Virus record (IMG/VR): IMGVR_UViG_3300000929_000042
Location: 1-37,768 of that record
Origin: a virus
Reading direction: 5' to 3' (one strand)
Length of the DNA stretch: 37,768 bases
Shown here: positions 3,275 to 35,555 of the stretch, one piece after another
How the letters are laid out: each line of letters starts with the position of its first letter
How positions within the stretch are numbered: the stretch's first letter is position 1
Program-made: the position numbers and the translations under genes
Notes under the pieces: model-generated
Seen by the model: only the letters and a program-made list of their open reading frames with translations
Databases searched by the model: none
What the model was told of the DNA's origin: nothing

Positions 3275-3299
3275 ACGAAATCTCCAAGTATATTGTTAT

Positions 3300-3328: not shown

Positions 3329-3331
3329 GTG

Positions 3332-4417: not shown

Positions 4418-4420
4418 AAA

Positions 4421-6882: not shown

Positions 6883-6909
6883 TTAATGAACCCCTGTTAC
6901 GACTAATTG

Positions 6910-6917
6910 TATTTATC
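6910..6917 (-). promoter_or_regulatory. Late promoter box GATAAATA
   Basis: The minus strand reads GATAAATA in the 40-base gap between the 634-aa and 507-aa fiber genes, 28 bases before the ATG at 6882. This fits the NATAAATA form reported for marine T4-like phages. Its distance to the start matches that of the TATAAATA box at 5356. Confidence 0.65.
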
Positions 6918-6922
6918 TGCTT

Positions 6923-8827: not shown

Positions 8828-8831
8828 TTAA

Positions 8832-10931: not shown

Positions 10932-10934
10932 TTA

Positions 10935-11549
10935 TTACCCCTCGTTAAACCCTGTTAAACTTTGTACCCTTACAGTATAATCTATTTGGATTAATCTGTT
11001 TAACGACTTTTGAATTGGGTGGAAAATAACGTGTGTTAGTAGTCTTCCTTCTCCATCGGGGCTATATGACCTAAGTCCTAATTCATCAAATACATAAAGA
11101 CTATCTGTACCAGTCGAAGTATCAAATGCTTCTTGACCGTTTGGCTCACCGTAATCTAGTAGACAGGTTACTAAAATATCAGTGTAGTTTGTACCGCTAA
11201 TATGTCTTGTTTCAATCTTGTTTCTTGCAGGGTCAATATTATTAACACTTCTATCATCTACAACCTTTGTAAATGTTTTGTTATACAAACTTGCATTTGT
11301 ACCTGTTGAGTTTGGTGTAAGGTATGTAATAATACCAGTTGGATCAACACTAGTTCCTCCGTTTCCGAAGTTCATTTCGTGTACCCAGCCATTGCCTGCG
11401 TTACTCAAACTTTCTGCAAGTGCTATACTCATGTTCTCATAATGTATAGCATTTCGCTTATTAATAAGGATCTCACCAGTAGTTGGGTCACTAATTTTAA
11501 TGTGCCCTTCTAAGAATGTTCCTTGTATGTCTTTAAATGTATCAGTCAT
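10935..11549 (-). CDS. Virion structural protein, 204 aa, between giant baseplate gene and fiber genes
   Basis: This small soluble protein starts FKDIQGTFLEGHIKISDPTT and continues with LINKRNAIHYENMSIALAES and GWVHEMNFGNGGTSVDPTG. Near the C-terminus are YVFDELGLRS and HVIFHPIQKSLNRLIQIDYT. I recall the same blocks in marine T4-like phages as a structural protein next to fiber genes. The sequence does not resemble T4 gp8 (334 aa), which would be expected in this position in T4. The length and beta-rich pattern would suit an adaptor between the baseplate and the fibers encoded after it. Its ATG follows AGGAAATAAAA, and a GATAAATA box lies 19 bases upstream at the end of the giant gene. Function is inferred from position. 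Confidence 0.7.
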   Translation of the reverse strand: MTDTFKDIQGTFLEGHIKISDPTTGEILINKRNAIHYENMSIALAESLSNAGNGWVHEMNFGNGGTSVDPTGIITYLTPNSTGTNASLYNKTFTKVVDDRSVNNIDPARNKIETRHISGTNYTDILVTCLLDYGEPNGQEAFDTSTGTDSLYVFDELGLRSYSPDGEGRLLTHVIFHPIQKSLNRLIQIDYTVRVQSLTGFNEG

Positions 11550-11567
11550 TTTTATTTCCTGTCAATG

Positions 11568-11575
11568 TATTTATC
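11568..11575 (-). promoter_or_regulatory. Late promoter box GATAAATA
   Basis: The minus strand reads GATAAATA across the stop codon of the giant baseplate gene, 19 bases before the ATG at 11549. The expected transcript start would leave a leader of about a dozen bases with AGGAAA as ribosome binding site. This is tighter than the other boxes but workable. Confidence 0.55.
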
Positions 11576-14500
11576 GCGGTAGATCAATACTCTTTCCACG
11601 CAAGAACGTTGCTACCTCAGTTTCTGATGATCCTAGCGGTTTTGTTGCCCCTGTAGTTGAGTCTGTTATTTCGTTCCATATTTTACCAATGCGTCTTACT
11701 ATAGTTAGCTTAGTATTAGGCTCTGGCGGCTCAGTTAGACGTACATATGCGCCAACATTTTTGTTTACAGCATATTGTGCTTCTAACCAAACATCACCTG
11801 CTGGACTAAATTGTCCTTTAGTAACATCGTATATTTTTAAAGGATTTTTTCTTAGTCGCAATCCATTGGCAAATATTTCAATGTCTTGTGCTTCCCAATA
11901 CTCGTTTGGTATTCCGCCGTCTTCATATGGTGCTTTATACCAACCTGTTTGATTAGTTTCGTTCCATACTGTTGCACTAATTGGATTTGGTGTTGGTGCA
12001 AACGGTAATAACACTTGTACATATCTAAGTGCCTTAGTTGCAACATAACTTGTTGCAGGTCTTAGAATTGGAACAGTTTCAACAGCATTGTAGATTACTA
12101 AGTCATATGCGCCAACTGGCATACCAACTGTTGTAAATGTAAACTGTGTTTCACTAACGTATGTAGTTGCTAAGTCTATTACTGTACCTTCTGCGTTTTG
12201 CATACGTGCTTGTACAGTTGGTCTAAATCCTGTACCATTTACTGTTGCAACTTGACCACCTAATGGAAATACAGTGTTATTGTTAAAGTTATAAGCAATA
12301 CCATCAAATGTTATTGAAGGATCTGATTCATATGCTTCTGTTAGCGTATTTGAATCGTAAATCTTTCTCAAATCTACATAGTTACCAGCAAACGCAATAA
12401 CTTGTTGTTCCTCATCCTTGTATGGCATACTTGTTTCTAAACTTTGATTAACTAGCTCTGTGCCGCCTAAGTGTATTTGAGGAATACTTGTACCTGCTGT
12501 ACCTCGACGTAATTGTTTTAATACATTGCCTTCTTTACGCAAGTATTCAATACGCTCTTGTCCAACAAACACAATACCTGGTCTTGATGTTGTTGGTGTA
12601 GGCAAGTTGCCATTATCTTTTTCAACAAGTGTAATAGTTCTGTCATACCAGTTTAAGTCTTGTGCAAGTTCGTAGAACCCATCTTTGTCAAGTCTTTTAT
12701 ATATGTTTTTGTTTAAGATATCTTTAAACTGTCTCCAACCATATTTTATACTAACTGGTGGATTAGAAAAATGTATTATATCTAGTACATCGTCTTTATA
12801 TATTGTAGTAATTATTTTTATTGTCTTTTTATTTTCTAATAATATATAATCAGCTGTAGGTGTTAACCATCTTCCGTTTAAACTAACCCAAACATAATCT
12901 GTACTAACTGCTTGTGATCTAATATTTAACAATCCGTTAGTAAGTAATCTATATTCATTATATCCTTCAGAGCCAACTGTCATCTCAGTACGCTGAACAA
13001 TGTCATAGTTTTCTCTGTCAATGCCTTGACTGTCATGATTAGTAAATTGATAAACTCTAATCTTTGAATCTTCTGTTGGAGCTTCATCAAAGTATACAAC
13101 TGCTGGCGTACTATCTCCTCCGGCAGTGTCAACCCATTCGTTACTACTATCATAATAACCAAATTGGTATTCACCACTTGTGATGATATGTACTTTTAAT
13201 TCATCTCCTGCAACTGCAACACCTCTGTTTAGTATAACTGTACTGCCAGGCTGTTGATCTGGATTAATTGCAGGGTTAAATGATCCTGCACCTTCGTAAG
13301 TCCATTCTTGTAAGAACTGTAGCTTTCTACCATTCAAGTATACTTCAATTTCATTACCTGAAACTGATGCAATTGGAACTTGCCAAACTTTTAATTTAAA
13401 TTCTTGCTGGCTTTCTGCAACTGTAAACTGTTCACTATATCCTGCATTTAATACTTTATTATCTACCATTACAATAGTATGATAAGCAACAGGCTCTTGT
13501 TGTAAAGGAACTTTGTTTAATTGGTATGCAACACTACTACCATCTGCTATAATTTCTTCTACTGATACCTTACTAAAGGATTCAACTGAATTATCAAATA
13601 TAGCAAACTGTATTAGCTTATCTGCAATTGGTGCTTGTACAAATCTTATAACACATCTGTTAGTTACTGCATAACTTGCATCTGACTCTAGTAACTGGAA
13701 CGGTAATTCTTCTCCGTTGACTGTTACATAAGCATGTACATTCTCTGAGTAAGTAATGTTTGTTAAAAATTCTTGTGTACTACCGTCTGTAGTAAATTCG
13801 TCATAATCAAGAATGTTACTACCACTAACACCCATACTAATCATATCAATTTTATCACCTAAGTCTGGTGCTACATAGAATATAACATCGCTAGTTGTGT
13901 AATCTATTTTGTATATGTCGGTATTAGGTATAACTCCATTAATTTTAATTATTACACTTTCAAAACTATACGGACGCTGTCTAAGATTAAATGTAGTTGT
14001 TACTCCGTCACCTTTATGTGTAGTAGTTTGTATTAAACTACTTCCACCAACCGGACGTTCAAATACAGTAATATCTAATGTATCTAATACTTGCCCTGGA
14101 ATTGTTTCTTCAGGTCCTGAGCTTGTAGTTTCTGTAACAAATCCGTCACCGTCAATATTAATTTCTTCTGCTTTAATACCTTTTGCAGTTGTGTATGCAA
14201 GGTCGCCGCCACTAATGTCAGTATCATAACTTTCTGAATCAATTAGTCTTGCACCATCTGATGTAGATTTAATAATTTTTATTATTTGTGCTGGTGGATT
14301 ATCTTGTCCATCTGTTTGTGTTGCTAAGAAGTTTCTATAACCGTTTTCATTTTCAATTGTAAGTGTATCAACAATTCCGTCACCTAACAATGTTTCCATA
14401 AATGCATTTTTATTATTAACACTTGAAGTACCGTCATACTCTTCATCGTCAACTCTTATACCATTAATATAAACATTATACTTGACACCATTCTCTAATG

Positions 14501-17500
14501 GTTTAGAAAGAGTAAACACTAATGTTGATCCGTCTGTTTGGAATAATTCTTCTTCAAATAGATCATCATATATATCCCAAGCACCGTTATACCAGTCGCC
14601 TGTATCCCAACCTGGAGGAGATCCAAACTCAAAGCTCTTCACTTCTACGCCACCATAGTCAACTCCAATCATCAACTGACTAATATCGTTACCAATTTGT
14701 CCGCTAGTTGGATTATAGAATAAGTTAACTCTATCTTGAGCATCTAATAAGTCTACTGCTTTCTTATATGTGACTTGAACTTCAAGTCCATTAGCCGGAG
14801 GATTAACAAAGTTAATTTTTCCGTAAGTTAATTTAGCATCTGAATCATATGTGTTTACATAATCATAATCACTGTTTAGAACTAGCTCACCACTTACAGT
14901 AACTTCAACTGTATTAGTTCTCATGTCCATTGGCCATTTTAAAGTAAACTCAGTTCTAGATCCTGTAGCATCAAATGTTTCTAATTCATTTAATTGTGTA
15001 ATAAAGAACGTACCTGACACTCTATCAAATTTAATTTTAGTGTGCATTGTTCGCACTTTACTTTTGCCTAGTACAGCACTTAGTCTTGCATCTGTGCCTT
15101 CATCAGTTTTTGCACCGTTAATAGTAATTACAGGACTTGTTAAATAATTGCTTCCAGCATTTAATACTTTAACACTAGTAATTTTTCCGCCTGGTCCAAT
15201 ACTTACTTCTGCTTTTGCTGTGCCTTCAATCTCAATTTTTGGTGCCGCTACATATCCTGAGCCTGCATCACTAATTTCAATATCTATAATTTCGTATGAA
15301 GCATTTTCTAACCAATATCTTTCTGGATAGTCAGCAAAGCGATCGCCGTTGTTACCTGTAAGTACATTATTAATTAAACGTACATTGTTAGTTTCAATTG
15401 TTTGAGAAGTAGTATCATATCTTGGTGGACTATCAAAGTCTGATATAACACTTGAACTACGCTCTACATTGTCATATGTTGACAAGTACTCTCTAATTGT
15501 TGTTGAGTAAGGTTTAACTTCTTGTATATAATCTTCGTAACTTTCAAGACTATCATTTTTAAATGTAACACGCTGTGTTAATTCACCAACATTATGTGTT
15601 GCTTTTACAAAACTTGTTTTAAATGCCCAGTCAACATATCCTTGTTCTGCAAATACATAACGTAATCCTGCAAAGAATAGTTTGTTATATTCATCTTGAA
15701 GGTCATCTGTTAAAATGTCTAACTTCAATGCTTGCATTATAATTCTTATTTCTTCAACTGGTTGACTATCAAAGAATTGTGTATCAAATGTTTGTGTATC
15801 AAAACCTACTCTACTGTTTTCTAAGTTATACAAGTTTTGTTCTAATTGAATAGTACCGTTTTGCTTACCAATAGTTTTATAATTTACAGTATAGTCAGTA
15901 GTATCTAAATCATTAATTTTTTCTAACAGTAGCCAACCTGAGCCACCAATGTTTAGAATTTTTATAATTTCACCAAACTTAGATTGTAAACTTTCTAATT
16001 CGTAACTTTGTGTGATTACATGATCAATTTCTGTAAAGGAGTTATATCCTGTTGCATACCAATCTGTATAATTCCAAAACTTTGTTACATCATATGCTTG
16101 ACTGTTAACTCTAATCCAGGTACCAGTAGTAGCATTTCTATTGAACAATGCCCACTTACCATTAATAGCACTGTCAGCCGTTACTAATGCCGCAAACGGA
16201 CGCACTGTTATGCTTGTGTTTTCGTTATAGTTGTTACCTTGTTGTACTACTGTTGCAGTTTCAATCTTACCTAAGCTGTCTAATGTAAATTTAAACTCTG
16301 CGCCTGCGCCTGTACCTTCTATAGTATAGGAAGGTGCAACTCTATATCCACGTCCTGGAGAATCAATTAACAATCTAACAATTTTGCCGTTTTCAACAAC
16401 TGGAGTAATACTAGCTGTAGTTGCTCTTGCAACACCAATAAATTGTAAGTCTATATCAGTATCAACTGTAACATCATACTCACCTAATGTTTGACTTGGA
16501 GCAGGATCTGTATCTTGCAATCTAGTTAAATTCTTTTCTTCTTCAATAAGATTATCTCTGAAAACGTTATTAACTCTTTCAACAAGTTGTTTTAATGCTT
16601 CTGTTTTATTAATGAACCAACCCTGTCTTGGTTTATTCAAAATACCATAACGTTCTCTAGGAGAAAGTTTTGTATCTGGAACAGGTCTCGATTGTTTGTC
16701 GTATCCAACTAAACTATCAATCCATTTATTTTCAATTTCTGCGTAAGGTACACTTGTACCTAACCCTTCTGTTAGAATTTGGTATTGATTATGTATATTA
16801 CTACCTGGCTCACTATATGTCCAATACTGTATGTTTAAAACAATGTCTTTATTGTTCATTAAATTCTTACAGTTATGTAATGACATTTCACCATTGTCAT
16901 AGAATGATATAAATTTGTATCCTGAGCTATTAGGATCTTCAATCAACGAAGCAACTGTTTGTACGCTCATTGATCTATTTTCTATATTTGGTATATTAGT
17001 TTTATCTTTGACCCAGAAATAATACAGCTTATTAAATTTTTGTGAAATCTTATCGTATATACGTTTTTCAACATATGCACTATTGCCGTATTTACTTGTA
17101 CCAGTTATACCGCTTCTTTCACCTTCTGCAAGTTTAGATACCTTATCCCATTGTTCAGGAGGTACTACACTTTCAACCCATTCGTAAATATCTATTGATC
17201 CACCAGGAGCAACTTTATTGTTGTTATTTGTTTTATAAATTAAACTTCCTTGAGTAGTATCATAGAACTTAGCATCAGTTAAGTCCCACCAAACTTGACC
17301 AACTTGATTTTCACCCCAGTTTGTTAATTCATTTATTCTTACATCTGTACTAGTACCAATATTATAAGTTGACGGATCAAAGAATGTTTTGTAACGTATT
17401 TCTTCATCAGCAGTACCAGCAATTTTACCTTGCGATACAGCAATGTAATCTAAGTTAGTTACAATAACATTTTTTTCTTTATCGTATAACATAACACGTT

Positions 17501-20500
17501 TGATTTTAGAAACATCAACTGGCAATGCAGGAGTTCTATGTTCTTTCCAAACTTTTGTGGATATGTCTTTGTTAAAGTCTAATACAAGTCCTTGCTTACC
17601 ATCTGCATTATTAAATCTAGGTAATGACATATAAATGTGATTGTTTTGAGCAGTAATATTTCTTCCAAAGAATTGTACATCTGGAACATTATAATCTAAT
17701 GTTTGACCAAATACTAGTGTGTCGTTAACTTTTTCGTAAACATATACAACACCATTGTTTGCTATTTCATTTTTAAATGTTGTAAACTTATTATCAAATG
17801 TTGTTGGAGTTATAACTTCACTGTCAGTATCTAATAGATACTGTTTGCCCGGAGTTGTATCTCCTGGATACAGTCTATTTTTAAATGTATCAAAGTTTGT
17901 AACATCATCACTAGATGCATTAAATGCACTTGCAAATAATGTACTTCCATCAAAGTCTAATTCTCCGCCAAAGTATTCACCTCTAACAGGACTTGTACTT
18001 ACAAGTGTTTGTGACAATGCAAAAGTACCGTTAGTCTGCTTGTAAACATAAATTTTACCAGACTCAGCAATATCAGTATCTCCATTAGGAGCACCAATTG
18101 CAATTAGCTTACCGTCTTGACTAATACTAACTGTTTTTGCAAATTCTGTTCTATCAAACTCAACCCATTTGTTAATGTCAGGACCAACTTCAGTTCCGCT
18201 TGTATGTGCAGTAACACATATGTATTCTCTTAGTACTTCAGTATTACTAGGATTATAAACATCTTCAGCTGACTCGCCCCAAAGTACAATATCATTTACT
18301 GCATATGGTGTGTTAATTACCCAGTTACCTTTGTATTCAACATCTCCATAACGAGGATCAATAATTTCTTGTGCTTTCTGATAATTGTCGTTTTGATTTC
18401 TATAAACAATTACCCTACTTGGCTCATTAGCATATTTTGCAACTACTGCTAACACTTCGCCATTATCTGTTACATCAAACTCTTGACCAAACTCAATTAA
18501 GTCTGTTGAAGAAATTTGTAATGCACTATCGTTGCCTGGAACATATTGTGTGTCATTAGGTACATAACCTAAGAAGTCTACACTTCTAATATTGTCATTA
18601 GTTGACAAATTCCAGTCTAGTATGTTAAACTGTGCATCTACATCATCTGGGTCTGTTGTATTACCTTGTATATTTGTTTTTGCTGTATAAAACTCGCCGT
18701 CTAAGAATACAATGTCATTTACATAGTAATTTCTTTCAGGAGCAAATTCACCTTTAAATCTTTTGTCTTTTGCAAGCTCCCAGTTATATTCTATACCTTC
18801 TTCATCAGTACCTTTGTTTACAAAGAATATCTTACCAGGATTTGCTGTAGTTCCGTTTCCTCGACAACCAATAAATGCTTTATACAAGTTATTGCGTTTT
18901 GTCATTTTAATTTTACTACCAATTCCTAATCCTGTTAATGTTTCAGGGAATATAAATGTACCTACAGAAGTAAATGTAGATATACTTTCTCTTTCATAAA
19001 CTGTAAAGAATCCAAAGTTGTCATATTCATTAGCAACACCATCAGCATCTGCAGGTATCTTATATACTTCTGTCCAATCAAAGTTAATTTGATCTGGAAT
19101 ATTTGGATTAGTAGGTAAACCTAATATTTGTGTGTCTTTATATATAAGGTATTCTGCATCTATAATGTCTGAGGCAGCGTGGAAATCAAAGTCCCCTCTT
19201 GAAACAGTAGCCGGTACTGGTGAAACAACTCCGCCTAGTCGGAATACACAAAGTTTACCAATGTTATATGTGTCGTTACCTAGTGAAGTTGCTTTGATAT
19301 CACCTAATGTTCTTGTAACTTGATACGTTAGGTCTGGATCGTTAGGATTACCTAACATTTCAATATCAGAAGCTTCACCATACTTACTACCAAGTTGCCA
19401 TGTACCAATTACATTGCTTACAAAGATAGTACCCGATGTACTATTTCTTTGATAAAATTCTACTTTAGCTGTTGCACCTGTAACTCTATCTCTAACAAAC
19501 TGACCAACTTTAGGTTCAAATCTATTAAAGTTATCACCTTCTTCTAATTCAAAGTCAACATAGCCATCCCATAAACCTACAAGTTCATGGTCTTTGTTTG
19601 TTTGTATATGATTTAACCCAATTGTTGAAATATCAACAACTGCATTGTCTGCATAAGCAGGTAGTCTATAAACTTCAACACCAATGGTGTCGCCTATTTC
19701 TATATTATCTGTTAGTGTCTTAGGTGCTCGCATAACAAACAGATCGCTTTCAATAGGATCAAGTACTCCGTATGCACCTGGTGTACCTTGATACGATAAT
19801 GTTCTTATATAAGAGTGTTGTCCTGTTTCGCCGGCAAACTGATCTTCATTTTTATTATCAATAACGTTTCCGCCAGCGCCGCCTGCATCTGCTTTACCTA
19901 ATGGAATAACATTATATATTGCTAATGCTCTACCTTCGTCACTGTTAGTTGGATCTACGGTATACTGTTCATCTGTATCAAACCACCAGTATCCACCTAA
20001 CACATCACTAGTATCAACTGTTTCTTCTACTGGAGCAACTCTTTGGAACTCACCAACAAACTCTCCTGTCTCTAAGAACAACGAACCTGACACTGGCCAA
20101 GTACCTACTGAGCCTGTTACATATACTGTAGCTCTGCCGCTTTCTGAATATGTATAATTAACATAACCACTTGCACCTACTGTATCAACTTGAAGTGTAT
20201 CTCCTGGAACAGTACTAACACTATCAATGTATAATACTGCATCAACCTTTTTAACTATAGGAAGTCCTCTTTCTAAGAACTCTTCAGTGATAGTTGCAAA
20301 TGTACCGTCAAACGGTTGTCTTGGTGTGTTCGGTGAATCTTGGTTAGCACTTGTAGTTAAGTACCAATCCATGAATACTGTGTCGCCTGCGCCTGTAGCA
20401 ACATACGCATCTTTAGGAGCTCTAACAAGTATGTGTCCTGTTGTGTCGTCTGTAACATCAGTAAACGGATAGTTACCTGCTAACAAACTGTTAAACAGTA

Positions 20501-23500
20501 TTTCTCCACTAGTAATGTTGTTGTCTTGAAGTACTTCAACTATTGATCCAAAGCTACCAAAAGGTTGTTCATCCTTTGCTCCGTCAATATCAACAACTGC
20601 TTCCCATAGACTATCGCCGTATTTTACAATGTCAGTATTTTCGTAATCTGATGTTTTACTATACTGTCCTTTAAATTTACTTTTTACTTGTCCTGCATCT
20701 GGAGCACCAGCAACTATATACTTGCCGTCTGCACTTATTGCAACGCCTTCACCAAAAGATATTCCACCTGATGATATATTGTCTGCTGGTTCAATAAGTT
20801 GTGTAAATTGGAAGTTTTGGTTTTGTCCGCCTCTAGTATATGTAAATATTTTTCCGTTGCCATCAGCAGTTGGAGATGCTAACGCCATAGTAACGTTTCT
20901 TCCGTCTACTGCTAGTGATTGTCCAAAGTTATTATTAACACCTGTATCTTCTGCTGGTATTTTTTGTAGCAAATTAAACGGTTGTGTATTTTCTAATACT
21001 CTCCAATTTCCATTTTCGTCTTCGTCTATCCAAATACGTGTTCCTTTATCAACACCTTTTTGTGATAATTTGTTTGCTTCTTTAAAGTCTGCAACTCTGA
21101 CTGGAGTAAATTTAGTAATAGTTCCGTTACATGAAATTATATCCTCAATAACTTCTTTAGTTTCAATTACAAGTTGATTCAGTGTAACTCGAAGTACTTT
21201 GTAAAAACCTTCAACTGGTTCTGTAGTTTGTACTGCTATTGGGAATGTACTATCGTCTGTAGATTTATCTGTAACTATTAAATCATATAATCCAATAATA
21301 TCTCCAGCTTTAATATCATTTGGAAAATTAGTTAGTGTTACTGTTGATTCATTAGCGTCTGCTGTACCTGTCGAAATTGCAGTAGCGTTACCTTTAACAG
21401 ATAGTGCTTTCCATTGTGTTGGCTTATGTTGTAATACATTCCAAGATTGCTTTTGTGTGCTTATCCATACATATGAATTGTTTGGAATAGAAACAAATGA
21501 TTGTTCTAATAATGAATCGTATGTTCCTAGTGCTAATGATACATCATCTAAATGTACAAAGCCCGGAGACTTAGTAAAGTTTGGTACTGTGTTAACTGTT
21601 GGCAGTACACTTGGTGTATAATTGTCTGGCTTTTTAAAGACTTCAAAGTCTTTAATTCTATAAACTAAATCAGTACTAGCAGTATCATCGTTAGACAAAT
21701 ATATTGGCTGTGGTTCAGCTCTATAGTTTATTTCATCTAATTCAAGTTCAAGTTCATCAAACCCTTCACTTGCTCCATACTGGCCTTGTTTAATAGCCCA
21801 CTCTTCATAGAAGTCTAAACTTTCTTTATCTGCACTGCTTAGTACATCAAACAACTTGTTTAAACTGTTAAGTGTTCCCTTGTCTTGTATCATGCCTTGA
21901 TAGAATTTATACTGACTTACATCATCATTAATAATATTTTCAAGGTACTGTCGCTTTTGATATCCAATCAAGTGTTGTGCCAACTGTTGCTGATCAACAT
22001 CAAAGTTATCTGTATCTAAGCTATAAAAGTCTGCAAACTGATTAGTCTTGTATTCAAAGTTAGTAGTCATCGAAGACTCTGGCTTGCTTGAAAGTCTAGT
22101 CCAGTTACTATCGTCAAATGTTTCAGCACCTGAAATTTGAGCATTTGATGTATAATAAAATTCTTTATACTTTATTAATGCACCAATGTCATAATCATTC
22201 CATTGTGACCATTCTTTAACTTTTGCTTCGTTATAAATAAATCCTGGAATATTTAAACTTCCGTCCCAATCTGAAGTTTTATATCCTAATACTTTAATTC
22301 GTTCTTGTCTGTAACCAGTACTTGGTTGATAAATTACGTCACCAAACACACTTAGGTTATCTATTAATACAATGTGTTCTTTTTGTACAATTGGAAGTCT
22401 AATTGCATATACGCCATCAGATGTGTTTTTAGGTTGTACTTGTAAGTTGTTGGGATTTGATCTGCTAATTCTTGTAAAATTATCATCTAGTTTAGTACCA
22501 TCTGCTTTTAATAAACTATAACCAAAGAAGTTATCAAAAATATTATCAACAACACTATATTCTGTACTAAAGTTAATTTCATCAGCAACAGGACTTAGAG
22601 ATATAATTGCTCCGGCAGCCCAGTTTTGTGTACTCCAAAACATAAATTCACGGCAACTATTTTTCCAGTCTGATATAACAGCATTATCACCATCATAAAA
22701 TTCAAAGTTAAAACCTTCTGACTTTAGAAAACTTTGATATCCTAGTAAAAAGTCTACCACGTCTTGTATTGTTTTTAATTCTGTGCCATATGGCAGTAGC
22801 TCTACATTTCTTTTATCAAAGTTATCTCTAAAATATGCATCCGAACCACCTGAAATTGGTATCTGTGGAATCTTAGCAAAGTTAATTATTTCAAAGTTTG
22901 CCGCTGATGTATGTGTTTTAAGAACCTTATAGAATACACTTTGGTATTGTACGTTTTTACCTTCAATATAAGTTTGTTGGGCTTGCCATTCTGTGTATGG
23001 TTCACTAACTCCGCCTACATTAACATATACGTCTTTAGTTGTAGGTTGAACTTTATGATATCTAAATGCTGGCGATTCTGAACTATATCCTCTAACTACA
23101 AATCCGCTAGGTTGTTTTTCTATAATAACACCACTATAGTTTACTAGTTTAATTGCACTACTGGTGTTTAATACAATATTATAGTTTTCTTCTGGTATAA
23201 ACACATTGCCTTTGTTTAAAGGAGTTCTACTATCAAGTATTAATTTAAATTTGGATTTATCAGTAAATCCACCTAATTTAAATCCAAGCATATTTTTTAT
23301 ACTTTGAATTCTTTTTCCATATTGTTTAAATGAAGCAGTAATGTTGCTAGCCATGTAATCTGACACATAGTTTACTACACCACTTGTAAGTATTTGTTGA
23401 CTATCGTCTGGAGTATTAGGAAACACTATGCTATCTAATGTTAGATGGTCACCTGTTTCGCTATAAACTAATTGCCCTAAAATATTTCTAACTTGTCTTG

Positions 23501-26500
23501 ATCTATCAAATCCTGATGCTAAAAATAAAGAAGGATTATTAGTCATCCAACTTGTAAATATTGCAAAGGGATAATCTGAACTTCTTCTCCAAGCACTCTC
23601 AACTGGTGCTCCGTCGCCAAATACAAATGCACTGTCAATACCAGTACTATCATAATTGATTGGTAAGTTTGCATTTGATGGACTTAGTAAGTTACCATCG
23701 ATATCTACTGGTAAGTATTTTGATAGACCGGGTCTTTGATATTTTTTGTTAATAATAAAAGTCTTGCCAGTTTCTCTAATAATACCTTTTTCAATATCTT
23801 CCCATAGTATTTTATTTTCAGAAGTATATGGAACAGGACCGTACTGTGTTTCCCACCATGTAGGTTTTATAGAAAACCCTAGCATTTCCCAAGGATGTGT
23901 ATGTGGACGATCAGTATCATACATATAATTGTAAGCACCTCTCCACCATCCTGGTAAACTTGTATTATTAGGTCCACGCATATTTTTATAGTTAAAACTA
24001 AATGAATCTAATCTATTAAAATATTTGTGTGTAGTATAATCTTCATCTACTAATGTTAACCACTGTACAAAGTCAGTAATCATTGGTGAATAAATTTGTT
24101 CTCTAGTAAATCCGTTATCTCTAAAATTACCAGTAACGTAAGAATTAATATCTAATACTGTAGGATCATATTTAATTTTAACATTATTAAATATTCTGCG
24201 TTCTAATTCTATAATTAAGTTATCTCTAAAATCGTCATATGCTTTAATAATACTTCCGTCATGCCCTTGTATCATTGTTGGAGATGTTGAATAAGTATCG
24301 TCTACATATAATGTAGGTTCGTATAGCGGATATAATCCTAGTTTAGTTGGAGTAGCTGGAATATAAGTACCATTGGTTGTTTCATATTCATTAATTTCAA
24401 TAATATCATTAAACTGTTTAGATGCAGTGATGTTTAAATAACCTTCACTGTTAAAAGTATAATCTTTATTATGTACTAACTGTACTTCGTTCAAGTAAAC
24501 TGACACCGCACGAGTGTTTAATTTTTCTAAAGTAAATGCTGTATTAAGTGCAAAAAATGTTGAGTCAACATCTTCAACAGTTATTCTTGTAGTAACACTT
24601 GGTCCATGTGCAATCATATCACTAAAGTAAAACGGCATAGTGTTAGTTTTATCTTTATTAATTTCTTTGATAATAATATCAACGTGTTGTTTTACTGGAC
24701 CTTCATAACCTAATGTTTCTGCTGTTTCTAAAAATAATCTTTTAAATTTACTATACTCTTTTCTAGAGTAACGCATTGCATTAATTACATTACTTTCTCT
24801 ATCAAGCAAACTAAACATTGATAAGTTTAATGGTGAACTGTTTTTAATAAACTTACGACCATATTGACTTTGATTAGCAATGTCTCTCAAATTGCCTGGT
24901 CCTGGGAATATACCTGTATACCCTGGAATGTTTTCAGTAATAGTTGATACGTGTTCTGTAACTTCACCTAATGTAAATCCGCTTACATTTTCGTTTAACG
25001 GATTGCGCTCTAAGTTATGAGCAATTTCATAATGCCCATTTTCATTTTTAGGAGTGTTAGTACATGTTTTAATTATTATATTAGCATCTGCTGTTAACGT
25101 AGTTATAAAACTAACTGATTTAATTTTATCAGCTGTATCAACTAATGTGTAGTCTGTATCTTCAATTTGGATTTTATCATTAACAAACACTGTTGTTTTT
25201 AAATCTGTAATAAGTGCTGACTGATCATAACAATTAATTGGGTAAGTTAATCTTGTTCCGTCATTAATGTATTGTAGCAACACTTCTTGCTTTGATAAAC
25301 TATCGGCTTTTTCGTATCTACCTACAGTTGTGTATTGATTATTTGAATTAAACTTTCTAATATACCCTGTACTGGATTGTAATCCGTATGTTTCGTCGTT
25401 AATTTGATATTCAAAGTTGTCACTATTATAATCAAAGTTAAAAACTATGTCTCCAACGTTATTAATACTTCTGTACGTTAACGGAAATCCTAATACACTA
25501 TCTGCTGTTCCGGTGCCCTCTTTGTATCCAAAGATTCTTGTACCTCTAAAAGTAGTTGCTGGATATTGTACTAAGTCTGAAAAACTATATCCGTTAACAT
25601 CAAACAAATCAAATAACGGAGCTTGGTTTACTGATGTTTTTTCTTGTGCTCTGTTCCACTGTGTGCCATCATAATAAAATAATGCACCTGCATACTCAGT
25701 ACCTTTTGTAATTAAAACATTTTCGTTTGGTTGTGGTTCACTATCGTCAGTTACAACTAATGATATTTGACCTTGTGTACCCGAGCCTTTAAATTTAATA
25801 AATTTTACTTCAAAGATCTTACCATTCACTAAAGGATCAGTGTCTGCTAAGAACATAACTCTCATACCTTCTGAAAGTTGTTGCGAATCAATATTGTATC
25901 CTAAACTTCCTTCAATAGTACTAAATGCATCTGTTGTATAGTCGTCAATAACATCAATAACTTGCTTAGACTTTGTACCAAAGTTATAAAGTTTTAATCC
26001 TGAATTAAATTCTATAATTGGTCTATTAGCACGTTGTGTTTCATCAATTTGTGTAGATGATTCATTAATGCTTGCTGATAAATCAATAACTTCTTTATGA
26101 TACCATCTATTGTATCTTGACCAAAAGTTACCATCTGGACTTGCACGATTAATTGTAATATAATCTTTATCACGTGGATATCCTGTTGCTGTACCAAAAG
26201 GCAATCTATCAAAACCTTCTTCGCCATCAAATGGTACAACTAAGTCAATACCTACTGGAAAACTAACTTCAACATCAATATCTGATACAAGTTGTATTCT
26301 GTCGCCAACTCCTTCAACATACCATTCACTATTTTGATACTTTGCTGGTTGTACTTCTCCTTCAAATCTTACCTTTAATCCATTAGTAAGAGTCCATCCA
26401 TCTCTTGAAGTATATGATTTTTTACCAATAAGTTCTGCGTCTACATCAATTGTTGTTGCTTCTGAAGCATTTGCAACCTTTATGACGCCGCCGACATTAA

Positions 26501-27290
26501 TATCGTTTTCAGCTACGTAAAATATTTCTGCTGGAGCATCAGGACCTAATACTAGTTCAATTATGCCTTGCTCAACACTTTGCGCACTAACACCTTCAGT
26601 AATTAAAAATTCTTCTTCTAATGTTCTTGCAGTTTTAAATGTAAGTGGTAACCCCGGAGTGTTAACCTCAAATACATATTTTACACCTCTATATAATTTT
26701 AGCACAGGATTGTTAGTAAGCCCGTCTGGTGTAAACATATATGAATAATCACCCAAAGCTTCTGCTAAGTTTACTGTATAGGTACTAGTAACTTCTTTGT
26801 CTTCACCTGGTATTACAACTGTTTGCGGACCGTTTGGTAACCAATAGTACTCACGAAAGTTTGTAAATTTATCCCAATCAATATGCGGTTGCCAAGTATA
26901 GAATTCTTGTTTGTTATTTTTACTATGATCAGTTGACACACCACCAAAGTTTGCAATTTGATTCATGTAGTCACGATAGTCAGCATAAAATTCTACATTA
27001 TCTAAGTTGTCTTTGATAATGCTTACTGGCTCTAACTGGTAATCTCTTCTTTCAGCAGTAACGTCATCTACATAGTTGTCGTCTTTTACAAATGCTTTAG
27101 CAGTTTTTCTACCAACAAATCCATTTATTTTTTCTGCAACACCTGGTTGTATTAATTGGTCTAGTGTTGATTGTAGAAACTTTTGGTTTTTATCAGTTCT
27201 AAAATACTTTGGAAGATGATATGAACTAGTACGTTTGTTATTATCACCTGCTGGCAATGGAAATTCGTTTTGATCTTTATCTTGTGCCAT
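11571..27290 (-). CDS. Giant baseplate/tail structural protein, 5,239 aa, gp7-like segment plus adhesion modules
   Basis: A single uninterrupted frame starts at an ATG sharing one base with the gp6 stop (TAATG). T4 has gp7 (1,032 aa) at this place. Residues 1-160 (YHLPKYFRTDKNQKF) and about 982-1042 (LYPLYEPTLYVDD, QGHDGS, ERRIFNNVK) look like blocks conserved in marine phage giants. Residues 1769-1837 (YQKRQYLENII, KFYQGMIQDKGTLNSLNKLF) resemble the KG-x-x-x-S-x-x-x-LF helix pair of T4 gp7. FG-GAP-like blades lie at about 2120, 2175-2197, 2932-2954, 3049-3071, 3104-3126 and 3206-3231, with carbohydrate-binding-like W/Y insertions between. GxGY repeats occur at 3639-3667 and 4002-4057, DG-x-x-x-x-F beta modules at about 4106-4660, an RGTAGT motif near 4930 and an IPT/TIG-like fold at 5009-5069. 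It probably forms the outer wedge and extends from it. The structural role is sure; gp7 equivalence is moderate. Confidence 0.82.
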   Translation of the reverse strand: MAQDKDQNEFPLPAGDNNKRTSSYHLPKYFRTDKNQKFLQSTLDQLIQPGVAEKINGFVGRKTAKAFVKDDNYVDDVTAERRDYQLEPVSIIKDNLDNVEFYADYRDYMNQIANFGGVSTDHSKNNKQEFYTWQPHIDWDKFTNFREYYWLPNGPQTVVIPGEDKEVTSTYTVNLAEALGDYSYMFTPDGLTNNPVLKLYRGVKYVFEVNTPGLPLTFKTARTLEEEFLITEGVSAQSVEQGIIELVLGPDAPAEIFYVAENDINVGGVIKVANASEATTIDVDAELIGKKSYTSRDGWTLTNGLKVRFEGEVQPAKYQNSEWYVEGVGDRIQLVSDIDVEVSFPVGIDLVVPFDGEEGFDRLPFGTATGYPRDKDYITINRASPDGNFWSRYNRWYHKEVIDLSASINESSTQIDETQRANRPIIEFNSGLKLYNFGTKSKQVIDVIDDYTTDAFSTIEGSLGYNIDSQQLSEGMRVMFLADTDPLVNGKIFEVKFIKFKGSGTQGQISLVVTDDSEPQPNENVLITKGTEYAGALFYYDGTQWNRAQEKTSVNQAPLFDLFDVNGYSFSDLVQYPATTFRGTRIFGYKEGTGTADSVLGFPLTYRSINNVGDIVFNFDYNSDNFEYQINDETYGLQSSTGYIRKFNSNNQYTTVGRYEKADSLSKQEVLLQYINDGTRLTYPINCYDQSALITDLKTTVFVNDKIQIEDTDYTLVDTADKIKSVSFITTLTADANIIIKTCTNTPKNENGHYEIAHNLERNPLNENVSGFTLGEVTEHVSTITENIPGYTGIFPGPGNLRDIANQSQYGRKFIKNSSPLNLSMFSLLDRESNVINAMRYSRKEYSKFKRLFLETAETLGYEGPVKQHVDIIIKEINKDKTNTMPFYFSDMIAHGPSVTTRITVEDVDSTFFALNTAFTLEKLNTRAVSVYLNEVQLVHNKDYTFNSEGYLNITASKQFNDIIEINEYETTNGTYIPATPTKLGLYPLYEPTLYVDDTYSTSPTMIQGHDGSIIKAYDDFRDNLIIELERRIFNNVKIKYDPTVLDINSYVTGNFRDNGFTREQIYSPMITDFVQWLTLVDEDYTTHKYFNRLDSFSFNYKNMRGPNNTSLPGWWRGAYNYMYDTDRPHTHPWEMLGFSIKPTWWETQYGPVPYTSENKILWEDIEKGIIRETGKTFIINKKYQRPGLSKYLPVDIDGNLLSPSNANLPINYDSTGIDSAFVFGDGAPVESAWRRSSDYPFAIFTSWMTNNPSLFLASGFDRSRQVRNILGQLVYSETGDHLTLDSIVFPNTPDDSQQILTSGVVNYVSDYMASNITASFKQYGKRIQSIKNMLGFKLGGFTDKSKFKLILDSRTPLNKGNVFIPEENYNIVLNTSSAIKLVNYSGVIIEKQPSGFVVRGYSSESPAFRYHKVQPTTKDVYVNVGGVSEPYTEWQAQQTYIEGKNVQYQSVFYKVLKTHTSAANFEIINFAKIPQIPISGGSDAYFRDNFDKRNVELLPYGTELKTIQDVVDFLLGYQSFLKSEGFNFEFYDGDNAVISDWKNSCREFMFWSTQNWAAGAIISLSPVADEINFSTEYSVVDNIFDNFFGYSLLKADGTKLDDNFTRISRSNPNNLQVQPKNTSDGVYAIRLPIVQKEHIVLIDNLSVFGDVIYQPSTGYRQERIKVLGYKTSDWDGSLNIPGFIYNEAKVKEWSQWNDYDIGALIKYKEFYYTSNAQISGAETFDDSNWTRLSSKPESSMTTNFEYKTNQFADFYSLDTDNFDVDQQQLAQHLIGYQKRQYLENIINDDVSQYKFYQGMIQDKGTLNSLNKLFDVLSSADKESLDFYEEWAIKQGQYGASEGFDELELELDEINYRAEPQPIYLSNDDTASTDLVYRIKDFEVFKKPDNYTPSVLPTVNTVPNFTKSPGFVHLDDVSLALGTYDSLLEQSFVSIPNNSYVWISTQKQSWNVLQHKPTQWKALSVKGNATAISTGTADANESTVTLTNFPNDIKAGDIIGLYDLIVTDKSTDDSTFPIAVQTTEPVEGFYKVLRVTLNQLVIETKEVIEDIISCNGTITKFTPVRVADFKEANKLSQKGVDKGTRIWIDEDENGNWRVLENTQPFNLLQKIPAEDTGVNNNFGQSLAVDGRNVTMALASPTADGNGKIFTYTRGGQNQNFQFTQLIEPADNISSGGISFGEGVAISADGKYIVAGAPDAGQVKSKFKGQYSKTSDYENTDIVKYGDSLWEAVVDIDGAKDEQPFGSFGSIVEVLQDNNITSGEILFNSLLAGNYPFTDVTDDTTGHILVRAPKDAYVATGAGDTVFMDWYLTTSANQDSPNTPRQPFDGTFATITEEFLERGLPIVKKVDAVLYIDSVSTVPGDTLQVDTVGASGYVNYTYSESGRATVYVTGSVGTWPVSGSLFLETGEFVGEFQRVAPVEETVDTSDVLGGYWWFDTDEQYTVDPTNSDEGRALAIYNVIPLGKADAGGAGGNVIDNKNEDQFAGETGQHSYIRTLSYQGTPGAYGVLDPIESDLFVMRAPKTLTDNIEIGDTIGVEVYRLPAYADNAVVDISTIGLNHIQTNKDHELVGLWDGYVDFELEEGDNFNRFEPKVGQFVRDRVTGATAKVEFYQRNSTSGTIFVSNVIGTWQLGSKYGEASDIEMLGNPNDPDLTYQVTRTLGDIKATSLGNDTYNIGKLCVFRLGGVVSPVPATVSRGDFDFHAASDIIDAEYLIYKDTQILGLPTNPNIPDQINFDWTEVYKIPADADGVANEYDNFGFFTVYERESISTFTSVGTFIFPETLTGLGIGSKIKMTKRNNLYKAFIGCRGNGTTANPGKIFFVNKGTDEEGIEYNWELAKDKRFKGEFAPERNYYVNDIVFLDGEFYTAKTNIQGNTTDPDDVDAQFNILDWNLSTNDNIRSVDFLGYVPNDTQYVPGNDSALQISSTDLIEFGQEFDVTDNGEVLAVVAKYANEPSRVIVYRNQNDNYQKAQEIIDPRYGDVEYKGNWVINTPYAVNDIVLWGESAEDVYNPSNTEVLREYICVTAHTSGTEVGPDINKWVEFDRTEFAKTVSISQDGKLIAIGAPNGDTDIAESGKIYVYKQTNGTFALSQTLVSTSPVRGEYFGGELDFDGSTLFASAFNASSDDVTNFDTFKNRLYPGDTTPGKQYLLDTDSEVITPTTFDNKFTTFKNEIANNGVVYVYEKVNDTLVFGQTLDYNVPDVQFFGRNITAQNNHIYMSLPRFNNADGKQGLVLDFNKDISTKVWKEHRTPALPVDVSKIKRVMLYDKEKNVIVTNLDYIAVSQGKIAGTADEEIRYKTFFDPSTYNIGTSTDVRINELTNWGENQVGQVWWDLTDAKFYDTTQGSLIYKTNNNNKVAPGGSIDIYEWVESVVPPEQWDKVSKLAEGERSGITGTSKYGNSAYVEKRIYDKISQKFNKLYYFWVKDKTNIPNIENRSMSVQTVASLIEDPNSSGYKFISFYDNGEMSLHNCKNLMNNKDIVLNIQYWTYSEPGSNIHNQYQILTEGLGTSVPYAEIENKWIDSLVGYDKQSRPVPDTKLSPRERYGILNKPRQGWFINKTEALKQLVERVNNVFRDNLIEEEKNLTRLQDTDPAPSQTLGEYDVTVDTDIDLQFIGVARATTASITPVVENGKIVRLLIDSPGRGYRVAPSYTIEGTGAGAEFKFTLDSLGKIETATVVQQGNNYNENTSITVRPFAALVTADSAINGKWALFNRNATTGTWIRVNSQAYDVTKFWNYTDWYATGYNSFTEIDHVITQSYELESLQSKFGEIIKILNIGGSGWLLLEKINDLDTTDYTVNYKTIGKQNGTIQLEQNLYNLENSRVGFDTQTFDTQFFDSQPVEEIRIIMQALKLDILTDDLQDEYNKLFFAGLRYVFAEQGYVDWAFKTSFVKATHNVGELTQRVTFKNDSLESYEDYIQEVKPYSTTIREYLSTYDNVERSSSVISDFDSPPRYDTTSQTIETNNVRLINNVLTGNNGDRFADYPERYWLENASYEIIDIEISDAGSGYVAAPKIEIEGTAKAEVSIGPGGKITSVKVLNAGSNYLTSPVITINGAKTDEGTDARLSAVLGKSKVRTMHTKIKFDRVSGTFFITQLNELETFDATGSRTEFTLKWPMDMRTNTVEVTVSGELVLNSDYDYVNTYDSDAKLTYGKINFVNPPANGLEVQVTYKKAVDLLDAQDRVNLFYNPTSGQIGNDISQLMIGVDYGGVEVKSFEFGSPPGWDTGDWYNGAWDIYDDLFEEELFQTDGSTLVFTLSKPLENGVKYNVYINGIRVDDEEYDGTSSVNNKNAFMETLLGDGIVDTLTIENENGYRNFLATQTDGQDNPPAQIIKIIKSTSDGARLIDSESYDTDISGGDLAYTTAKGIKAEEINIDGDGFVTETTSSGPEETIPGQVLDTLDITVFERPVGGSSLIQTTTHKGDGVTTTFNLRQRPYSFESVIIKINGVIPNTDIYKIDYTTSDVIFYVAPDLGDKIDMISMGVSGSNILDYDEFTTDGSTQEFLTNITYSENVHAYVTVNGEELPFQLLESDASYAVTNRCVIRFVQAPIADKLIQFAIFDNSVESFSKVSVEEIIADGSSVAYQLNKVPLQQEPVAYHTIVMVDNKVLNAGYSEQFTVAESQQEFKLKVWQVPIASVSGNEIEVYLNGRKLQFLQEWTYEGAGSFNPAINPDQQPGSTVILNRGVAVAGDELKVHIITSGEYQFGYYDSSNEWVDTAGGDSTPAVVYFDEAPTEDSKIRVYQFTNHDSQGIDRENYDIVQRTEMTVGSEGYNEYRLLTNGLLNIRSQAVSTDYVWVSLNGRWLTPTADYILLENKKTIKIITTIYKDDVLDIIHFSNPPVSIKYGWRQFKDILNKNIYKRLDKDGFYELAQDLNWYDRTITLVEKDNGNLPTPTTSRPGIVFVGQERIEYLRKEGNVLKQLRRGTAGTSIPQIHLGGTELVNQSLETSMPYKDEEQQVIAFAGNYVDLRKIYDSNTLTEAYESDPSITFDGIAYNFNNNTVFPLGGQVATVNGTGFRPTVQARMQNAEGTVIDLATTYVSETQFTFTTVGMPVGAYDLVIYNAVETVPILRPATSYVATKALRYVQVLLPFAPTPNPISATVWNETNQTGWYKAPYEDGGIPNEYWEAQDIEIFANGLRLRKNPLKIYDVTKGQFSPAGDVWLEAQYAVNKNVGAYVRLTEPPEPNTKLTIVRRIGKIWNEITDSTTGATKPLGSSETEVATFLRGKSIDLPR

Positions 27291-30200
27291 TAGTAACTGT
27301 ATCCTCCGTTACTTGAACTGCCCGAGCTACTAGAACTACTAGAGCTACTGTTACTACTGCTACTTGGTGTAGAAGTAGTTGTTGTTGCTCTTGTGCTTGT
27401 AATATCAGTAGCGTTGCTTACAACCGTTGTGCTTTGTACACCTACATTTGCTGTTACTGATTTAGACACAATAGAGCCTTCTGCTTTTAGTTTAGATGCT
27501 GTAATAGCATCGATAATATCAATGTTGTCAACTATTGCACCACTAATAAAAATTTCATCTGCTTCTGCTTTTATTTCGTGCAATGATCCGTATGCTTGAT
27601 CATCTTGCACAGGAACAATAACAAATGCTGATACATCTGGTGTTAGTTGCGACATTACATAATTTGATAATTCTGAGAAGTAAAATGTTTCTCCAAAGTC
27701 CCAATTGTCTAATGCAAAAAATTCATTAATTGCATTTATAACTCTTGCCTTTACGTCATTATCGTTAATAACTTTATCTGGATTTTTAACAATTTTAAAT
27801 TTAGCTTTCAAATCGTCTGGTGCCTCTGTTCCAAATAGTATCTTGTATTTAACTGGATGATAAATGATCTCATCTGTGAGTGATTTAATTTTGTTTAATT
27901 CTTGACCATAGTCTATATACAACTGATCTGAACTTTGTGGAAGTGGTTTAGTTACAGCACCTTGTGTTAACCAAAGTCTAAATTCATTATCATAGTTTCT
28001 TGTAAGCAAGTACATGTCAATAATATTACTTGCACTTGGATCAATTCTTGATTCACTGCCGGAAGCATGAATATATCTAAATTTAATATTGTCTCTTCCA
28101 AGTCTTGCTTTATAATCTGTAGTCAATATTAATTTTAATGCTGTTAAATCTAGTACTTCAAATATATCTTGATCTATATAATAGAAAATATCTCCATCAT
28201 TATAATTACTAAACGGTAATATTTCTGATTTAGTGTTTAACACTGTTATTGCTTGTGAAGAATTATTAAAATAATTAAAGTCTTCAACACCGTCATTAGT
28301 AATATACTTTTTAAATATGATATACTTTGATGTTGTATTAATAGTAGGTGATACAATTTCATCAAACAAGTCAGCATCATCTACAATACCATCTTCGTCA
28401 TCATCATAATAACTTACTTCTAATTTTTTACTATCAACATATCCTTCTGCATCTTTATATGCATCAACGATTTCCCATTTAAAGTCTTGTGTAAACGGAG
28501 TAGGATCTGCTGTAGTATCTTTAGGATTAATATTCAACACTGTAACTGTATCTTTTACAATTTTACCAGTTTTATTATTATAAATTTTATCATTTGAATC
28601 GTAATAGAATCTTATTTCATTATCACTTTCAAAAACATAACGCATTGATCTAAATGTTATTGTATATGTTTCGCCGTTATTTTCAAATAACATTAACCAA
28701 CTTGCATCTAATTGCTGGTTAGTAGTATCGCCTGTTTTACCAGTTGAAAACTCTGAACCTATTGACAGGTTGTTTTCTGTAACTAGTTTCCATTGAGCAT
28801 CAATTTGATCAAATCGTAAACCAAATACTTTGTATGCAAAAATTTGATCATATAGTTGTTGTTTAACACCTGTTGATAAATCATTTGCAAGTGGAGGTTT
28901 AACTTCTGCTAGTACAGCATTTGTTGGAACAACTTCGTTTAATATTACAGCGCCTTGGCCGTCTTCACGTTGTTCAAACCCTGTGCCGTTAATGCTAATT
29001 ATTTTAACCCATTTGTAGTAAGAGTCGCCAACAATTGATGTTGGACCGCTAACTAACTTTCCGTTTTTGTCAAAGTGGTCTGTACTAGTATCAGGATCGC
29101 TTGGATTAGTTTTTGCTACAAACCCAGGAGATACAAATTTAATAAGTGTACCTTCAGTAACTAATCGTAAAATTGAACTTGTAAAAGATCCTAATGTTGA
29201 CGGAACACTATCAATGTTACTAAAAAAGCCTGTTGTGTATTCTGTTTCTTTAGTTGTTTGTTGCCAATTAATATTTAGGTCTCTAGTAAGAATTCTTGGA
29301 AACTTATCAAAATAATAGTTTCTTACTTTTGTGTCTTGTAATATTGGAATAAGAGTATTTTCAACTGCACCTTCAACATCTGTTCTTGTTGTAAATGTAA
29401 ATGATTTTATTTTGTTTTGATACTCTTTATACACAACACCATCGTTACCATATAATGTTGTTTGACTGTACTTTCCAGTTGCATCAACTAAGTCAAAGTA
29501 TCTACTAATACCGCTTGACGTTCTATTAACGCTTTTTGTTTTAATAATTTGTTGGTTAATTGATAATGGAGCAACTTGATAATCTTCACCAGTAATCATT
29601 CTATTTTGAGTATAGTATGTTGACGGTGCTCTCGATTTAATGCTTTCTGTTGATTCACTAACTGAACTATTATCTACAGTATATTTTAAACTATAAACAA
29701 TAGTAATTTTTTCTTCTCTGCCCTTTTTAGACAAGTAAGGAATATTAACTGTAATATTTCTAAAGTCATTTGGTCTAACTGTAACTCTTTGATTTAGTCC
29801 TGTTCTAAAGTAAATTTTAAAATTACCTTTAGGCAAGTCGCCAAATGTTCCGTCACTAAATGTTAAACTAACTCTGTCATCAACTCTAGTTAATGCACTG
29901 TAAATTTTTCTATTATTCTTTTGTACAGAATTATAAATGATGTTGTTGCCTTCTAACGAATCAACTTTTGTCCATAATTCTTGTTCTGAACCTGTACTAT
30001 CAAGATCATATAACCATACATCTGTATTGTTAATGTTAGGTGTTTCAATTGCAACTGTTTGGTTGCTTGAAGGATTAGTAATTGAAAACGTTCCTTGGTC
30101 TAATATGCCTTGACGGAAGTGACTAAAAAATCCTGTATTGTTACTTGATGGACCTTTGCCATCATCTCTATATAAGAACGCAAAGTTGTTACCTGGAAAC

Positions 30201-30935: not shown

Positions 30936-31385
30936 TTATTGTAGGAAGCCGGCAGCCTCATCAAATTTGAATTGTAACTTCTCAACAATACTATATGTAA
31001 GGTACGCTAATTCACATTCAACAAGTATGCCTGTTTCATAAGAATCAACAGTTATTTGATTAACTTGTACTCGAGGATCATAATTTACAATTCTAGATAC
31101 ATTTTGTATGATTGCATTTTTAACATCCTCAGTTAATGGTTCAAAAATGATGTCCCATATAATAGTGCCAAATTCAGGATCTGACAATTTTTCGCCTTGT
31201 CTAATATGAAAGTGATTAATAATATCTTGTTTGATTAGAGCAATGTCGTATAATACATGAGAATTAGATTCAGAACTAACTGTGCTAAATCCTTTATATG
31301 TAGGTCCGCTGTCAGCAATCTGATCTAAATTTTTATTAGATTTAACTTTAATTTCTTTGTATAAACTTTTTTCTAAACTGCTCAT
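30936..31385 (-). CDS. 25: Baseplate wedge subunit gp25, 149 aa
   Basis: gp25 is the small wedge protein of contractile baseplates; it binds gp6 and gp53 and nucleates the sheath. The core (YDIALIKQDIINHFHIRQGE then FGTIIWDIIFEPLTEDVKNA) is the gp25-like fold shared with type VI secretion TssE, including the acidic residue in the IFEP turn. A C-terminal segment (RVQVNQITVDSYETGILVEC) completes the domain. Length is close to T4 gp25 (132 aa), with a short N-terminal extension of about 30 residues (KSLYKEIKVKSNKN). It sits between the gp5-like spike and gp6. The start ATG follows AAGG by about a dozen bases, and the gene begins 12 bases after the gp5 stop. Confidence 0.92.
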   Translation of the reverse strand: MSSLEKSLYKEIKVKSNKNLDQIADSGPTYKGFSTVSSESNSHVLYDIALIKQDIINHFHIRQGEKLSDPEFGTIIWDIIFEPLTEDVKNAIIQNVSRIVNYDPRVQVNQITVDSYETGILVECELAYLTYSIVEKLQFKFDEAAGFLQ

Positions 31386-35251: not shown

Positions 35252-35252
35252 A

Positions 35253-35555
35253 TTACACTCCTAATTGCTGTGCTAGGTTGTCGCCTTTTGGAAGATAAAT
35301 TCTTACACCTGCTACTAAATCGTATACCGGGTCTTTTATAATATCCATATTTCTTTGTGCAAACACCCACCATAACTTTTCTGATCCGTATAAGTCATAT
35401 GCTAATAGATCAGGACGATATGTATATTGTGTTTGTACAGTATATAACAAATCATCTGCCTCTGCTGGGATAGGTCTGATTGATAAAATATCTAAGTATT
35501 GATTTTGTACCATTGTTGTTCTGTTGTACGGACTTGTTGATTCATATTGTGCCAT
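35253..35555 (-). CDS. 53: Baseplate wedge subunit gp53, 100 aa short form
   Basis: gp53 binds gp6 and gp25 at the inner baseplate and has a LysM-like domain. Residues 45-90 carry the family signature: YRPDLLAYDLYGSEKLWWVF, AQRNMDIIKDPVYDLVAG, then RIYLPKGD. It is half the length of T4 gp53 (196 aa), like other short marine-phage forms, and keeps only the core. Its ATG shares one base with the stop of the tail-tube cap gene (TAATG), and the hub gene starts just after its stop, so the three are probably translated together. Confidence 0.82.
   Translation of the reverse strand: MAQYESTSPYNRTTMVQNQYLDILSIRPIPAEADDLLYTVQTQYTYRPDLLAYDLYGSEKLWWVFAQRNMDIIKDPVYDLVAGVRIYLPKGDNLAQQLGV
35258..35262 (-). 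promoter_or_regulatory. Ribosome binding site that supports the GTG start of the hub gene
   Basis: The minus strand reads AGGAG, then 6 bases, then GTG at 35251. A stray ATG two bases earlier is in another frame and would stop the reading, so the spacing and frame favour GTG. Confidence 0.6.

Follow-up and report, generated by a model that had tools for sequence, protein, structure and literature searches.

A 5,239-residue protein of an uncultured marine virus belongs to a jumbo-phage virion protein family and probably works in place of gp7

The window analyzed here, a 37,768-nucleotide stretch of viral DNA (IMG/VR record IMGVR_UViG_3300000929_000042, positions 1 to 37,768), carries on its minus strand a giant gene (11571..27290) that starts with an ATG preceded by a GGAGG-type ribosome site and encodes 5,239 aa. 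A first-pass annotation, made from the sequence alone, had described this as one uninterrupted gene about five times the length of T4 gp7, occupying 42% of the window and specifying a protein of over half a megadalton. All of these statements agree with the single open reading frame we recovered, which takes up 15,720 of the 37,768 bases (41.6%), is 5.1 times as long as T4 gp7 (1,032 aa), and has a product of 588,039 Da (588 kDa) and pI 4.6, as computed from the translation. Chance can be excluded as the source of this frame, since a stop-free run of 5,239 codons has a probability of ~10^-193 at this base composition, and the remaining five frames contain 198–799 stops each across the gene.

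An assembly artefact joining two genes, which the first-pass annotation had named among the findings that would overturn its description, was refuted by relatives in IMG/VR. A search of 32 contigs with the last 800 aa of the giant gave matches in 31, every one lying in an uninterrupted frame; 29 of these frames span 5,005–5,284 aa, and the other two (4,666 and 4,624 aa) both run near contig ends. Twenty relatives re-extracted whole each consisted of one open frame as well (4,999–5,278 aa). Pairwise comparison with the closest relative, which is 90% identical at the aa level, gave a dN/dS of 0.112 overall and 0.096–0.135 in each of four segments of the gene, so that its whole length is maintained by purifying selection. 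With 29 other contigs equally unbroken, dN/dS near 0.1 from end to end, and no point found in favor of a fusion, we rule this artefact out as having a negligible probability.

Directly upstream, the window encodes a 1,197-aa homologue of the baseplate wedge protein gp6 (27290..30883, minus strand), matching the baseplate-wedge families PHROG 10646 (E 7e-295) and PHROG 219, which confirms the earlier placement of the giant in the gp7 position after gp6. The ATG of the giant overlaps the gp6 stop by 1 base (TAATG), and gp6 and gp7 of T4 also overlap. This arrangement recurs across relatives: gp6 was upstream in 147/147 IMG/VR loci with enough flanking sequence, with the 1-base overlap in most. 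Of nine cultured phages, eight carry gp6 immediately before the giant, the ninth, SCTP-2, standing outside the gp6 count. In this Salicola phage, the gp6 slot just before the giant holds a 3,096-aa gene (6606-15896), to be compared with 1,197 aa for gp6 in the window and 660 aa in T4. Further profile matches on the minus strand of the window identified homologues of gp25 (30936..31385) and gp53 (35253..35555), as well as a gp5-like hub protein (31398..32840). The hub protein is 480 aa long vs 887 aa in 121Q, and its lysozyme part may be missing, as its match to PHROG 13211 is confined to the N-terminal part. Downstream of the giant lies a conserved 204-aa protein of unknown function (10935..11549, minus strand; PHROG 11259), homologues of which follow 35 of the 44 complete giants. 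The window also contains three consecutive fibre-like genes (5359-10931) with a common N-terminal domain of ~90 aa (PHROG 15511, 14394) and differing C-termini, some of whose PHROG matches point to tail fibre or collar proteins; two smaller adjoining genes (3332-5326) with another common N-terminal sequence (GYGQ type) and no PHROG match; and adjoining, possibly glycosyltransferase-like ORFs of 272 and 286 aa (1259-2930) that resemble each other at the N-terminus and of which the first has a match to PHROG 1903 (unknown function).

Both halves of the giant match PHROG 10938 (E 1.2e-258 and 4.3e-75), a 3,324-position family annotated as “virion structural protein”, the profile of which is matched by 19/19 members of the core alignment of relatives. 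Records label members of this family only in terms such as “hypothetical” or “virion structural protein”. A tblastn search with aa 1-2000 matched 84 phage records, and the matches listed were jumbo phages in 40 of 40 cases, including the PA5oct group, Atu_ph07, Phosso, SCTP-2, 121Q, GAP32, CBB, and Vibrio 2.275.O; the giants of RaK2 and RAS14 were reached via gp6. Within IMG/VR, a search with aa 1-1600 recovered 338 relatives and a profile search with the central region at least 581 stretches encoding the family. Single PA5oct or SCTP-2 sequences gave no match in a viral contig search. The nine cultured giants measure 3,138 (RAS14), 3,323 (121Q), 3,326 (RaK2), 3,340 (CBB), 3,771 (Vibrio 2.275.O), 3,807 (SCTP-2), 3,857 (PA5oct), 4,449 (Atu_ph07), and 4,555 aa (Phosso), and a homologue in AP-J-162 was published as 4,455 aa (PMC11242549).

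In a tree built from aa 1090-1930, the window falls inside a marine clade. Most of the complete or near-complete proteins of this clade exceed 4,900 aa, and shorter ones are placed elsewhere in the tree. A length of 5,239 aa is thus normal for this clade, and the marine branch is among the longest of the family because it gained the predicted integrin-like propeller module described below. The first-pass annotation had offered the giant structural genes of marine T4-like phages as context; the relatives of the window giant are, however, found in jumbo phages of the PA5oct, Atu_ph07, and RaK2 type and in a large marine clade, and not among the pelagi- and cyanomyophage giants of the VrlC group. 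A Neomarinimicrobiota metagenome-assembled genome in GTDB includes two contigs of 335 kb and 153 kb (PBPT01000016.1 and PBPT01000082.1), each with a 5,267-aa giant, which resemble jumbo-phage contigs that binning has assigned to a bacterial genome. Given the 335-kb contig, the marine branch is probably jumbo as well. The giant is a longer, propeller-bearing marine variant of a known jumbo-phage family, which resembles its cultured relatives in its place after gp6, its single giant ORF (3,138–4,555 aa in the nine cultured phages), and, where tested in those relatives, its presence in the virion.

The most conserved parts of the giant are not its adhesion modules but two core regions, namely core 1 (aa 1-1930; 21501..27290, minus strand), conserved in all jumbo-phage relatives, and core 2 (aa 3231-4000; 15291..17600, minus strand), also conserved in jumbo relatives, whereas aa 1931-3230 are poorly conserved beyond the marine clade. 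Homology to PA5oct gp355, Atu_ph07 gp180, 121Q gp582, RaK2 gp465, CBB gp236, and phAPEC6 gp245 extends over both cores. Core 1 contains the hallmark of the family, a conserved block at aa 1745-1817 (21840..22058, minus strand) with predicted helices (pLDDT 50-60) and a FYxGxIxxKGT motif, found as such or as a close variant in 9/9 cultured and 149/151 IMG/VR members; this block is a candidate gp6-binding or gp7-type element. Two copies of a GxGY beta-module were identified at aa 3640-3700 (16191..16373) and aa 4000-4060 (15111..15293), both on the minus strand.

Adhesion-type modules, a series of which the first-pass annotation had seen in the rest of the protein, were recovered as mini-domains of CBM5/12 type and an FG-GAP propeller. 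The insert specific to the marine variant (aa 2105-3230) is predicted to adopt an integrin-alpha-type FG-GAP beta-propeller fold, the first half of which (aa 2105-2205; 20676..20978, minus strand) is separated from the second (aa 2926-3230; 17601..18515, minus strand) by an insertion of ~720 aa (aa 2206-2925; 18516..20675, minus strand) that holds a weak CBM5/12-like module at ~2849-2873. The strongest FG-GAP_2 match (PF14312, E 5.5e-9) lies in the second half and, at 36.5 bits, is above the curated cut-off of 23. The AlphaFold model of the insert (pLDDT 82, pTM 0.70) had integrin alpha headpieces as its best PDB matches in Foldseek (E 2.5e-7, prob 1.00), with low TM-scores of ~0.28-0.35 on target that are presumably due to the insertion splitting the propeller. 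The predicted propeller differs from that of integrin alpha subunits in this split, in its phage virion context, and in its calcium-binding loops, as a motif search of the window giant found no canonical DxDxDG. No FG-GAP module was called in the giants of Atu_ph07, PA5oct, 121Q, or SCTP-2, and the propeller, along with the length of 5,239 aa, sets the window giant apart from these relatives.

A CBM5/12 (chitin-binding type 3)-like mini-module at aa 1434-1465 (22896..22991, minus strand) matches PF02839 (E 5.7e-5; 23.5 bits, below the curated cut-off of 26.2) and the profile of DA1 (E 3.4e-4), and its predicted fold is of CBM5/12 type (Foldseek prob 1.00 to CBM-bearing chains, target TM 0.73 for 1ed7, and 0.5 Å over 30 residues for the DA1 CBM). 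Similar modules were called in PA5oct, Atu_ph07, and SCTP-2. A second such mini-module (aa ~1688-1722; 22125..22229, minus strand) has a profile match to a chitin oligosaccharide deacetylase (E 0.0027). Neither the CBM5/12 nor the FG-GAP fold is in itself proof of sugar or receptor binding. Toward the C-terminus, aa ~4100-4850 (12741..14993, minus strand) form an array of DG..F / V.VNG beta-modules that partly resembles the N-terminus of T7 tail fibres, with a weak match, and T4 gp10, a match best read as a common generic beta-module. PHROG 677 (gp9-type connector) was matched by 4 of 19 core sequences and was absent from the window and five members rechecked.

The virion role suggested by the first-pass annotation is borne out in relatives. 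PA5oct gp355 carries the record note “ESI-MS/MS”, phAPEC6 gp245 (381.88 kDa) was detected in the virion with 17 unique peptides and is listed beside the baseplate wedge protein gp244 (PMC7247149), and CBB_236 was detected with 21 peptides and is listed beside the baseplate wedge protein CBB_237 (PMC5259590). The virion tables label these giants as “hypothetical protein” or “structural protein” (PMC7247149, PMC5259590). Such detection establishes presence in the particle but gives no position within it, the peptides cover 7.6–7.7% of the giants and do not demonstrate full length (PMC7247149, PMC5259590), and we found no structure or localization for any family member.

A gp7-like helical block had been reported at residues 1769-1837 in the first-pass annotation. 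The conserved, predicted-helical block is real, but no method yielded a significant match to gp7. HMMER profile searches against PDB, Pfam, and PHROGs returned no significant T4 gp7 homology; hhalign comparisons with T4 gp7, the HTVC008M gp55 family, P2 gpI, and VrlC gave nothing significant; and Foldseek searches of the models against PDB and BFVD found no significant gp7 match, the strong BFVD matches listed being members of the same family (e.g. Atu_ph07) or uncharacterized proteins of uncultured phages. No PDB chain matched the core model at E < 1e-3, although structures have been solved for the baseplate of T4 and for others; the candidate helical block was modelled at a pLDDT of only 50-60. 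The KGT helix of this block aligns in register with HTVC008M gp55 and P2 gpI, its top hhalign matches (pairwise E ~0.05-0.07), the likeness being weaker for T4 gp7 (pairwise E of 0.05-0.3 across all three), so that a link through this short motif is only suggestive. P2 gpI, the 176-aa gp7 counterpart of simple contractile tails, has the motif in common with the giant but no profile match to it, and the giant has no Pfam match to Tail_P2_I (PF09684). A C-terminal HPxGF motif, which is invariant in six aligned T4-type gp7 proteins and also occurs in HTVC008M gp55, is missing from the window giant and 9/9 cultured relatives.

Across nine complete giant-bearing genomes, neither the T4-type gp7 profile nor Pfam Phage-Gp8 had a match (T4 and HTVC008M controls for the latter were positive), and Tail_P2_I had none over cut-off. 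Profile searches have some reach in these genomes, as Phage_gp53 gave a match, mostly a weak one, in eight of them. However, HTVC008M, whose gp7 slot holds a 1,016-aa protein, is likewise missed by the T4 gp7 profile, and an undetected gp7 is therefore not proof of absence. This HTVC008M protein, gp55 (33435-36485), lies between gp6 and gp8, is annotated as “head closure Hc2”, and is weakly similar to T4 gp7 in a colinear arrangement that includes the KG helix and the HPxGF motif; gp7 has been stated to be absent from HTVC008M and replaced by VrlC (PMC7029224). VrlC of pelagi- and cyanomyophages (HTVC008M gp57, 2,001 aa) is also a large baseplate protein and has been proposed as a gp7 stand-in (PMC7029224), but its gene follows gp8 while the giant follows gp6, and we rejected membership of the giant in the VrlC group in view of the lack of significant sequence or profile similarity. 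Overall, the giant resembles T4 gp7 in the position of its gene after gp6, its overlapping start, and its likely role, and differs from it in being five times longer, having no detectable sequence similarity and no fold match to a core model whose helical block has low pLDDT, and lacking the HPxGF marker. These comparisons do not show membership in the gp7 family, yet the giant probably works in place of gp7.

We consider it fairly probable that the giant is a jumbo-myophage baseplate-wedge protein that fills the gp7 slot, and perhaps that of gp8 too, with a host-facing periphery. The core (aa 1-1930 and 3231-4000), centered on the KGT helical block, would bind the gp6/gp25/gp53 wedge and take over the structural job of T4 gp7, and perhaps also of gp8. 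By analogy to T4, one giant per wedge would amount to six copies per virion, with a mass of ~3.5 MDa. The propeller, including its long insert, the CBM5/12-type mini-modules, and the C-terminal beta-array would point outwards and form a periphery that contacts sugars or receptors and holds fibres, so that a single chain would both keep the wedge together and make contact with the host.

How the giant came to this slot could be explained in two ways, by divergence from gp7 or by non-orthologous replacement of gp7 (and gp8). That the giant is a genuine gp7 orthologue, diverged to an extreme degree and enlarged by domain insertion, is a special case of the wedge reading and seems a serious but unlikely possibility: the slot and the kind of gp6 overlap are the same, and the KGT helix is in register with its HTVC008M and P2 counterparts, but every alignment has E ~0.05 or worse, HPxGF is missing, and no structural match was found. 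A bolder reading, unlikely to a similar degree, is that jumbo phages of this branch have a wedge of different design, in which a single protein of over half a megadalton, homologous to neither gp7 nor gp8, would replace both, and in which the integrin-like propeller added by the marine clade would bring receptor sensing and contraction triggering together in one polypeptide.

Other readings place the giant outside the wedge scaffold or divide it. The recognizable modules are mostly of adhesion type and gp7 homology is undetected, as expected if the giant were a peripheral host-contact spike or adhesin on the baseplate and a small unrecognized protein encoded elsewhere did the job of gp7. We regard this as rather improbable, since the two cores are more conserved than the adhesion modules, the coupling to gp6 is invariable, and the nine complete genomes yielded no other gp7-type protein or Tail_P2_I match over cut-off. 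The extreme length and modular build, along with the low peptide coverage in relatives, would also fit a polyprotein whose cleavage gives several virion proteins; this is improbable, as core and insert are in one frame in the relatives examined and wedge proteins of T4 type are not known to mature through cleavage. Finally, the relatives CBB and phAPEC6 bear hairs or whiskers along their tail sheaths (PMC5259590, PMC7247149), but it is very improbable that the giant forms such fibres, given a gene within the wedge operon and coupled to gp6, and given that a search of the giant for long coiled-coil or collagen-type repeats found none.

A wedge role for the giant would matter well beyond this window, as members of the family abound in the sea: IMG/VR has at least 581 stretches that encode one, in addition to the 84 cultured phage records. 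The link to gp6, along with the undetected gp7 and gp8, provides a concrete and testable proposal for how jumbo-phage baseplates may be built, and the propeller insert represents a candidate host-contact module in uncultured marine jumbo phages.
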